A stretch of DNA of 11,554 nucleotides, from positions 1-11,554 of the forward strand of contig CAMWJM010000013.1 of the NCBI GenBank assembly GCA_947174575.1, in the 5' to 3' direction. Each line of letters starts with the position of its first letter. The first letter of the stretch is position 1. Under the pieces are notes generated by a model, which was not told the DNA's origin, did not search any database, and saw only the letters and a program-made list of their open reading frames with translations. Positions 894 through 7,041 of the stretch are shown here, in pieces. Made by a program: the position numbers and the translations under genes. Origin of the DNA: an uncultured Alistipes sp. (GTDB lineage Bacteria; Bacteroidota; Bacteroidia; Bacteroidales; Rikenellaceae).

Positions 894-1364
894 ATGGCAG
901 TAATGAAAAAGAAGGGCAACAAGAGTTTGCCCCCCATTTCGACAGCGTCGCTCCCCGACGTGATCTTCATGATCCTCTTCTTCTTCATGGTCTCCACGAC
1001 CATGCGCGACCAGGAGTTGTTGGTGCGTTACAAACTCCCCGAGGCTACCGAGGTGCAGAAACTCGAAAAGAAGTCGCTGGTGAGCTACATCCACATCGGA
1101 CAGCCCTCGCTGGCCATGCAGGCCAAGTTCGGTACGGCACCCCGTATCCAGCTCAACGACTCCTACAAGACGACCAAGGACATCCTCGATTTCGTGGCCG
1201 CCGAGCGCGACAAGCTCAGCGAAGCCGACCGTGCTTCGATGACCATCTGTCTGAAAGCCGACGGCACGACCAAGATGGGTATCGTCACCGACGTGAAGCA
1301 GGAGCTTCGTCGAGCCAACGCCTTGAAAATATCCTATGCGGCCTCGAAGTCGCTGGGTTATTGA
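894..1364 (+). CDS. exbD: ExbD/TolR-type biopolymer transport protein (second of two)
   Basis: This is a second, shorter ExbD paralogue of 156 residues, close to the usual family length. A basic N-terminus (MKKKGNK) precedes a transmembrane helix at about residues 22-39 with the sequence PDVIFMILFFFMVSTTM; Asp22 takes the place of the proton-carrying Asp. The rest is a periplasmic domain, and its C-terminal part (about 115-150) fits the ExbD fold that binds TonB or peptidoglycan in relatives. A start three codons later (Met4, position 903) is equally possible. The gene follows the first exbD by 4 bases and is the last of the operon, since a strong intrinsic terminator lies about 20 bases downstream. 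The two copies differ markedly outside the helix, so they are probably distinct subunits and not a recent duplication. Confidence 0.9.
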   Translation: MAVMKKKGNKSLPPISTASLPDVIFMILFFFMVSTTMRDQELLVRYKLPEATEVQKLEKKSLVSYIHIGQPSLAMQAKFGTAPRIQLNDSYKTTKDILDFVAAERDKLSEADRASMTICLKADGTTKMGIVTDVKQELRRANALKISYAASKSLGY

Positions 1365-1385: not shown

Positions 1386-1420
1386 AAACGACGGGCCTTT
1401 CATGAGACCCGTCGTTTTTT
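1386..1420 (+). terminator. Intrinsic terminator of the exbD operon
   Basis: A 10-bp perfect stem (AAACGACGGG at 1386-1395 against CCCGTCGTTT at 1408-1417) with a 12-base loop runs straight into six T residues (1415-1420). It lies 21 bases after the stop of the second exbD. Confidence 0.85.
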
Positions 1421-1607
1421 GAACCCCGATAAAAAACAGACTTCTCCTACCCGGAATGGCAGGGGTCACGGCTCCTGCCAGCGTGGTAAGTAGATTCAGC
1501 GATCCACTGGCAGCAGAAAGCGCAAAACAGAGGAAAACGCCCTCTGCATGGTCATATCGGAATCCGCGACCGTGCTTATAGGCGGGTGGCTGTTTGCGGG
1601 GTTGTCA

Positions 1608-1762
1608 GTTATTCATTCCAGCTTGGCGGAAAGTTACGAACAATAAATAGCAAGAATAGGATGGTGAAAGAAACGGCGGGACATAATCATTACCCGTTAT
1701 TCATTCACTATTCTTATACACTATTCATCGATTGTATGTTCCTTTTCGTTATTCATTCCAGC
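1608..1762. repeat. Short direct repeats GTTATTCATTC
   Basis: GTTATTCATTCCAGC occurs twice, at 1608-1622 and 1748-1762. A partial third copy, GTTATTCATTC, is at 1696-1706, and CTATTCAT is seen near 1721. The copies lie in a locally A/T-rich stretch just before the FISUMP-like segment. Their role is unknown; they could be ends of duplicated or inserted DNA. Confidence 0.5.
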
Positions 1763-1780
1763 GATCGCTTTTCGCAAGCA

Positions 1781-1994
1781 CCTGCCGCGGGCTACCGCAG
1801 CAACGCGTCGGGAGCCTTGGGCTACGTCGGCGAGCGCGGCCACTGCTGGTCGTCTTCGTCTTACGCAGCCGGCAATATCAACGCCGGGTACTTGTACTTC
1901 AATGCAGGCAACGTGAACCCGCTGAACAACGCCAACCGGGCCAACGGATTCTCCGTGCGCTGCGTCCAGCATCTACAGGAAGCTGTTTTTTATC
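1781..1994 (+). other. Orphan FISUMP / C-type-lectin-like 3' end, DGR template- or variable-repeat-like
   Basis: Read in the frame starting at 1781, the segment gives PAAGYRSNASG, then CWSSSSY, then GYLYFNAGNVNP, and ends ANRANGFSVRCVQ. This is the pattern I know from the C-termini of Bacteroidota proteins with the FISUMP / C-type-lectin-like fold, which also serve as DGR targets. Ten of about 67 codons are Asn, and seven of the fifteen codons at 1901-1945 are AAC or AAT. Such codons are favoured in DGR templates because changes at adenines diversify them. The match begins abruptly near 1781. The frame stays open leftwards only to about 1586, in sequence that looks non-coding, so no parent gene is present. 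The frame also runs on past the usual end after RCVQ without a stop. A weak CAGC/GCTG hairpin followed by six T residues (1967-1991) ends the unit. No reverse transcriptase or avd gene is in the window. It could be a displaced template repeat, a stranded variable repeat, or a simple gene fragment. Confidence 0.5.
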
Positions 1995-1997
1995 TTT

Positions 1998-2600
1998 TTA
2001 TTCGAAAGGGAGTTCCAGCTGGTCGATTTCGTGGTTGAACGTCAGCCGATGATGCGGCGTGAGGCCGTGTTCGCGGATCGCCAGACGATGTTCGCGCGTC
2101 GGATAGCCTTTGTTCTTGCACCAGCCGTATTGCGGATATTCCGCATCCAGACGACACATATATTCGTCGCGGTGGGTTTTGGCCAGCACCGAGGCCGCCG
2201 CAATGTCGGCATACTTGCCGTCGCCTTTCACCACACAGAGATAGGGCAGAGTCAGGTGCGTGCGGAAGCGGTTGCCGTCGATCGCCAGAAACCCCGGCTG
2301 CGGATCGAGCCGCGCCGCGGCCAGCGACATGCCCTCGAACGACGCATTGAGGATGTTGATTTCGTCGATCCGCTCCGGCGACACCGCCTCCACGGCCCAC
2401 GCCACCGCTTCGCGCTCGATCACTTCGCGCAGCCGCTCTCTGTTGCGCGGGGTCATCTGCTTCGAATCGTTGAGCCGCGGATCGTGGAAATCGGGCGGCA
2501 GCATCACCGCCGCCGCGAATACGGGGCCGGCCAGACAGCCGCGACCCGCTTCGTCGCAGCCGGCTTCCGGAAATTCATATTGACAACACAACTCCAACAT
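1998..2600 (-). CDS. rnhB: Ribonuclease HII
   Basis: RNase HII cuts RNA in RNA-DNA hybrids and removes single ribonucleotides from DNA by nicking on their 5' side, in the cytoplasm with Mg or Mn. The 200-residue protein has the normal length and all signature motifs: GCDEAGRG at residues 14-21 with catalytic Asp16 and Glu17 and the GRG loop that senses the 2'-hydroxyl; DGN with Asp108; KGDGKYADIAAAS with Asp127; and KGYPT with Tyr166, the residue that stacks at the RNA-DNA junction. The C-terminus ends ELPFE. The gene stands alone on this strand and diverges from the membrane-protein gene to its right, with a short shared upstream region. On its strand TAACTTTA (2607-2614) resembles a -7 box but lies very close to the ATG, so the true promoter is uncertain. 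Downstream it runs straight into the inverted-repeat block. Confidence 0.97.
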   Translation of the reverse strand: MLELCCQYEFPEAGCDEAGRGCLAGPVFAAAVMLPPDFHDPRLNDSKQMTPRNRERLREVIEREAVAWAVEAVSPERIDEINILNASFEGMSLAAARLDPQPGFLAIDGNRFRTHLTLPYLCVVKGDGKYADIAAASVLAKTHRDEYMCRLDAEYPQYGWCKNKGYPTREHRLAIREHGLTPHHRLTFNHEIDQLELPFE

Positions 2601-6883: not shown

Positions 6884-6894
6884 CCGATGCCAAG

Positions 6895-6924
6895 TCCCCT
6901 CCGAGGAGGGGATTTAGGGGAGGG
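6895..6924. repeat. Palindromic GC-rich intergenic repeat (REP-like)
   Basis: TCCCCTCC-GA-GGAGGGGA forms a perfect 8-bp hairpin (6895-6912). A third arm, GGGGAGGG (6917-6924), could compete for the same CCCCTCC strand. I recall the type TCCCCTCC...GGATTTAGGGGAGGG from intergenic sites in many Bacteroidota, but cannot check copy number here. It lies between lipB and recJ. Confidence 0.55.
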
Positions 6925-6937
6925 TCAGATCTGTAAA

Positions 6938-6954
6938 CGCCGCCATAGGCGGCG
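6938..6954. repeat. Short GC-rich hairpin between lipB and recJ
   Basis: CGCCGCC-ATA-GGCGGCG is a perfect 7-bp stem with a 3-base loop, 13 bases after the palindromic repeat. There is no T-tract, so it is not a classic terminator; together the two hairpins could slow read-through or protect the lipA-lipB messenger. Confidence 0.45.
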
Positions 6955-7041
6955 AACACGACCGACAACAGAGAGAACCGGCGAACGTCATATCGCCAAA
7001 CGACTGAATTTAAATGTTGAAATTAAATAATAATAGTTCGT

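Follow-up and report, generated by a model that had tools for sequence, protein, structure and literature searches.

Why does a coding-like segment that belongs to no gene lie between exbD and rnhB in an uncultured Alistipes sp.? The window, i.e., the whole stretch of 11,554 nucleotides that was analysed, had been described in a first-pass annotation as holding an orphan template- or variable-repeat-like piece of a diversity-generating retroelement (DGR), and several of the points read from the letters were borne out. A single open frame at 1781-1969 encodes the FISUMP-like C-terminus PAAGYR...CWSSSSY...NRANGFSVRCVQ, AAC or AAT accounts for 7 of the 15 codons at 1901-1945, no target gene lies upstream (exbD runs to 1364 and rnhB, which is convergent, to 1998), and there is no stop at the usual end of a target, the frame continuing 22 codons further. 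The block resembles the C-terminus of a FISUMP protein in reading; a profile search gave weak matches to Fib_succ_major and Lcl_C, all below the cut-off. We consider it very probable that the segment is one non-coding template cassette of a multi-template DGR serving a single surface-protein gene.

The coordinates 1781-1994 proposed at first delimit a real segment but are too short. Because a conserved leader stands 5' of the coding-like block, the repeated unit begins at about 1428, and a cassette of approximately 570 bases (1428-1994, + strand) lies in the exbD-rnhB gap, as listed in Table 1. The cassette tail is located where targets carry their stop codon and a target-only tail motif. Elsewhere in the window, an intergenic stretch at 6890-6960, 3' of a lipoate ligase-like gene, contains short inverted repeats.

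Table 1 Parts of the window cassette and the features next to it.
Feature	Position	Strand	Remarks
exbD-like gene, 5' of the cassette	894..1364	+	Name by reading
Terminator-like hairpin after exbD	about 1386-1420		By eye
Closing stem, left arm	1428..1439	+	GATAAAAAACAG; pairs at 12 of 12 bases with 1983-1994
RNA leader, structured	1450..1775	+	Match to Rfam RF03028 (RT-7 RNA), whole model 1-191
Template-repeat block (TR)	1781..1969	+	63 codons, 10 of them AAC/AAT; own start codon and stop absent
Cassette tail	1970..1982	+	CATCTACAGGAAG; CATCT common to cassettes
Closing stem, right arm, and T-run	1983..1994	+	CTGTTTTTTATC; terminates just ahead of the rnhB stop codon
rnhB-like gene, convergent with the cassette	1998..2600	-	Name by reading

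The genome of the window is a draft (72% complete, 256 contigs), and nine cassettes were found in it, together with two genes of the target type and a single reverse transcriptase (RT) of the DGR type. With a 280-base DNA query, eight further matches covered most of the query at 73-81% identity and three were partial; at the protein level, 11 further matches were obtained. Such a number of copies greatly exceeds what chance would produce. It had been reasoned that a segment with neither another copy nor a DGR RT in its genome would be a plain gene fragment; both are present. Eight RT-7 matches corresponded to eight of the cassettes, the ninth being broken by a contig end. A truncated copy without the leader was also seen on contig C35 (L047:612-780), 3' of an apparent 5S rRNA gene.

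Relatives contained 12-89 matches, both in arrays adjoining the RT and scattered elsewhere. Block matches, targets included, numbered 89 in G060, 87 in G012 (a count inflated by a duplicated stretch), 47 in G062, 38 in G009, 22 in G061 (A. muris), and 20 in G007, and RT-7 matches numbered at least 83 in G060 (107 of 166 candidates scored), 40 in G062, 23 in G061, 13 in G066, and 12 in G064. In these gut bacteria one RT appears to rewrite one gene from about 10 to about 90 scattered template cassettes, whereas a textbook DGR has a single template next to its enzyme. None of 140 cassette blocks contained an in-frame stop, although tblastn favours open blocks and the set includes one target row of G066. 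The open frame of 150 codons with a GTG start that spans the window block might be taken to encode a short translated protein; however, an in-frame ATG was absent from 98 of the 140 blocks and the next in-frame stop followed at no fixed place, 2 to 666 codons after the block, and we regard such a protein as extremely improbable.

The window leader matched RT-7, which Weinberg and colleagues reportedly described as a candidate RNA in 2017, with 90.5 bits (E values of 1.3e-21 and 7.3e-22), which is under the gathering score of 116.8; in G064, the cassette occupying the exbD-rnhB gap scored 117.3, above this cut-off. Two helices of the leader covaried: one was paired in 342 of 372 cells, compared with at most 320 in 2000 shuffles (62 cassettes parsed), and the other in 145 of 175 cells, compared with at most 141 in shuffles (25 cassettes parsed). 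Among 61 genomes of the genus, RT-7 was present in seven, and a close RT (E below 1e-100, a cut-off picked after the list was seen) was present in the same seven; four more had a distant RT and no RT-7.

The closing stem was examined with 88 cassettes from eight genomes, i.e., 108 rows minus 16 of G012 and four target or odd rows. The mean score of an end with its own partner was 26.98, compared with 21.66 (sd 0.46) when partners were shuffled within genomes, and none of 5000 shuffles reached 26.98, although the own partner was the single best one in only 32 of the 88 cassettes. This pairing was kept in copies with quite different end sequences. The Bacteroidota -7 promoter has the consensus TAnnTTTG; upstream of cassettes it was found in five of 87, all in G062, and shuffles gave up to five, so that such a promoter was unsupported.

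Inverted ends, dispersal, and tandem arrays would also suit a non-autonomous mobile element of small size, similar to a retron or a MITE, with the template block as a passenger, and the exbD-rnhB gap of relatives adds to this resemblance, since the orientation of the cassette there varies. In G064 a cassette occupies the same place in the same orientation, its block differing from that of the window at 41 of 189 bases. The cassette is in the opposite orientation in G061 and G009, with long reversed matches, and the gap of G060 and G012 showed only short reversed matches of 37-47 bases. In G066 the gap is 256 bases long and no cassette match was found in it, and in G062 and G007 it is long or rearranged. 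An attempt to define insertion boundaries with the empty site of G066 was abandoned, the gap being too diverged. As regards the ends, their variation between copies with retained pairing fits an RNA structure and not transposase recognition sites, and a target-site duplication was not established. We think it rather unlikely that the cassettes are such a mobile element; as a hypothesis on their spread, it is compatible with a template role.

The first-pass annotation had reported no RT nearby. This holds within the window; genome-wide, one RT was found on contig C51, directly 3' of a sibling copy, where two cassettes immediately precede it. The protein matched RVT_1 with 57.6 bits (cut-off 29.6), and its best match among PDB sequences was 8ub7_A (E 4.8e-39), which we take to be the DGR RT of phage BPP-1. 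It contains YVDD and LPIGNLTSQ, the latter presumably the SQ motif of DGR RTs. No NCBIfam model was matched over its cut-off; the best were group II and retron models, below cut-off, the retron RT model giving 51.5 bits against a cut-off of 235. From the RVT_1 and PDB matches and the GNLTSQ motif, the enzyme is assigned to the DGR type.

The analysis also covered 15 RT loci from named genomes of Alistipes, Rikenella, Paludibacter, Prevotellaceae, and one other. At many of these loci the RT is directly preceded by cassettes in a tandem array, with the target gene further upstream of the array in those inspected. DGRs have an accessory protein beside the RT; at three loci a gene of 171-230 aa lies between target and array, and MutS domain I scored over the cut-off in one of the three. 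In L068, from a Rikenella MAG, template-like blocks form arrays with as many as 15 members, and many of these are only about 240 bases apart, a spacing that indicates a different cassette layout. The Paludibacter genome G068 (L072) contains 38 FISUMP-family matches and eight RT-7 matches, and perhaps has many targets as well as several templates.

The variable repeat was readable in 11 targets, each of which was compared with cassettes from its own genome or locus. For seven of them, a cassette explained the repeat with changes almost only at template adenines, and the pooled changes were at 89 of 241 adenines and nine of 965 other bases. The target on contig C82 of the window's genome differed from the cassette on another contig, C165, by six mismatches, all at adenines (6/14 adenines, 0/85 other bases); the overlap is only 99 bases because C82 stops within the repeat. 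The corresponding values were 22/39 and 1/150 for G007, 7/35 and 1/154 for G060, 12/37 and 0/143 for G064, 9/40 and 0/140 for G068, 16/39 and 2/141 for G066, and 17/37 and 5/152 for A. muris (G061). The sole non-adenine change in G007 and in G060 was at the last base (CAG to CAA), and in G060 the first base of the block was one of the seven changed adenines. For the five cleanest targets, which were selected after the table was seen, 56 of 165 adenines and two of 672 other bases were changed (Fisher p = 6e-41).

Five of the seven template cassettes (those of the window's genome, G007, G060, G061, and G066) lie outside the RT array, and those of G064 and G068 lie inside it. As to the three possibilities raised earlier, a template acting at a distance, a seed moved away from its RT, or a fossil, the first is thus best supported, through the sibling cassettes: siblings outside the array are evident templates of targets on other contigs, and the differences fall almost only at template adenines. 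A fossil origin, with the cassettes as degenerated 3' remnants of former target genes and an inert copy in the window, seems improbable in view of these five targets, of the open blocks, and of the covariation of ends and leader helices; it would fit the absence of the promoter consensus from most cassettes, partial copies in the draft genome such as that on C35, and a window copy used by no target examined, but this copy retains its complete closing stem, full-length RT-7 match, and AAC/AAT codons.

Ordinary homologous gene conversion from silent donors, as with pilin or vls copies, would need no reverse transcription, and the distant loci L113 and L114 of G062 look like a swap without adenine change. 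The target differences, however, are almost confined to cassette adenines in one direction, whereas cassette pairs shared between genomes are unbiased (e.g., L078 and L090 differ at 14 bases, two and four of them at an adenine of either and eight without adenine), and RT-7 co-occurs with the close RT. Gene conversion alone is accordingly a very improbable account.

Two members of the same genus, in which RT-7 and the template are each present once and the template adjoins the RT, gave 18/45 adenines and 0/138 other bases (G002) and 21/54 and 0/132 (G033). Judged by this pattern, both are ordinary DGRs, which indicates that the leader itself goes with DGR templates.

For four of the 11 targets (C20 of the window's genome, L069, L070 of Rikenella, and G012), no clean template was found among the sequence compared. 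The C20 repeat differed from the best cassette at 54 bases, 33 of them not at adenines, and the L069 repeat showed 15 adenine and 12 other mismatches. That of G012 was identical to an array cassette on contig C85, which bears a 7.66-kb duplication; G012 was therefore unusable as a target and was excluded from the stem test and the cassette counts. The C20 gene (L049) is a second target-type gene and stands beside a methyltransferase-like gene (by eye). The A. muris target was also considered as a mosaic of two templates, and the second template reduced the non-adenine mismatches only from five to three, so that a mosaic was not established. Seven stretches in viral contigs fitted a pattern of targets, none of which was confirmed.

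In four genomes the variable repeats of targets lie at contig ends or in N (C82 of the window's genome, C20/C92 of G064, L144 of G062, and L145 of G066), and the variable repeat of the G062 target is a run of N. This would be as expected of population-level variation; for the N, masking is possible.

Among six related target proteins, four could each be matched to a cassette, a different one in every case, with no more than one residue that changes at template adenines would not produce; one of the four is the target of the window's genome again and three are from genomes other than those of their cassettes. These fits suggest that lineages differ in the template they use. P0006 matched no cassette. 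P0007 was considered as a target fed by a cassette of the exbD-rnhB type, but it carries the cassette tail, making an assembly chimera likely, and was not used. As for the window cassette, no variable repeat examined derives from it, and 9-14 residues stayed unexplained in comparison with the six target proteins, which represent few alleles; its use would therefore follow from its siblings and its membership in the family.

A motif, GTGAGCGAGC..AGCGAGNCGAACG, occurs right after the stop codon of the target exactly once in eight of nine genomes (e.g., L150 and L143-L149) and 0 times in G009; the same motif read backwards was found 0 times in the nine genomes. In the genome of the window it belongs to the C20 gene; contig C82 ends before its target reaches the motif position. 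Its core, GAGCGAGC, was absent within 60 bases of all 194 remaining non-target rows, three rows (G062, G064, and G012) having been classed as target ends outside the 194. This target-only tail motif is a candidate retrohoming signal.

The cassettes also appear to exchange sequence with each other. L113 and L114 of G062 share an identical 189-base block beneath leaders only 63% identical, indicating that blocks are swapped between cassettes. In the G060 array, the neighbours L094:3295 and L094:3716 (minus-strand coordinates) showed 22 differences, 16 at adenines of 3295 and none at adenines of 3716, so that 3716 seems to be an adenine-mutated copy of 3295. The earlier proposal that the 5' part of the window segment is an adenine-mutated variable repeat is not absurd in view of this one mutagenic overwrite, but it found no support for this copy, which differs from each of the eight relatives nearest to it at 35-38 of 183-189 bases, adenines and non-adenines alike. 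Possibly, although we hold this at slightly below even chances, the tens of template RNAs from all over the genome that rewrite one gene form a self-renewing library, whose templates are also swapped and mutagenised mutually; template choice and adenine mutation would then multiply.

In the model that we propose, each cassette would yield an RNA in which the RT-7 leader is followed by the 63-codon template block and both ends pair as a closing stem. Transcription and cDNA priming would be part of this process. The RNA with its leader and closing stem may be bound by the single RT, encoded elsewhere, which would reverse-transcribe the template block and insert random bases wherever the template has an adenine. 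The resulting cDNA would then take the place of the corresponding 3' end in one surface-protein gene, which has DUF4906/FISUMP-type sequence and the target-only tail motif. The final steps, error-prone copying and cDNA replacement, follow those of known DGRs (PMC12875486 and PMC8144416).

Standard DGRs vary one template. If the model is true, a gut commensal with a library of distinct, separately located templates could exchange the entire backbone of a surface loop before randomising it, and the candidate RNA family RT-7 would be explained as part of the DGR template RNA. Searches confined to RT neighbourhoods miss such remote templates, and a 2021 metagenome survey states that remote targets would escape its detection (PMC8144416). 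The system is carried by a cultured species, Alistipes muris DSM 112343, and is thus directly testable.

The DGR itself is known, and the proposed variant has many dispersed templates for one target. The system resembles DGRs such as that of BPP-1 and those of the Bacteroidota type with FISUMP targets in its RT, which is close to 8ub7 and has the SQ motif and YVDD, in its template and variable repeats with adenine-specific mismatches, and in the C-terminal position of the variable repeat within a lectin-like (FISUMP-type) sequence. It differs in having tens of different templates per target, many far from the RT, each with pairing ends and its own leader 5' of the block; in BPP-1, by contrast, RT-Avd is recruited by the spacer RNA that follows the TR (PMC12875486). 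It shares with multi-TR and trans-acting DGRs more than one TR and targets remote from the TR. Of 271 multi-VR DGRs, 216 had one TR only, leaving 55 with more than one (PMC6642488), and a TR can also act on targets at other places of a genome (PMC10907252). In the passages on these DGRs, no family of dispersed cassettes that have an RNA leader and serve one target was described. In the open full-text literature, which leaves most subscription papers outside, and in passages of PMC8143477, PMC8144416, PMC4891356, PMC10907252, PMC12875486, PMC3521204, PMC6642488, and PMC8867640, we found neither a dispersed template library nor RT-7 as a DGR template leader.

The leader fits the whole RT-7 model and its occurrence within the genus equals that of the close RT, whereas here the RNA can be understood as the 5' portion of the template RNA of a DGR. 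The msr-msd RNA of retrons has its ends closed by a stem, as would the cassette RNAs, but in its RT and its pattern of template and variable repeats the present system is like a DGR. In silent-cassette antigenic variation, such as that of pilin and vls, one expressed gene is accompanied by many silent partial donors elsewhere. One expressed gene and many silent partial donors at different places are likewise found here, but the transfer bears the adenine signature of reverse transcription; if the model is true, the library would be the RT-driven counterpart of silent-cassette antigenic variation.
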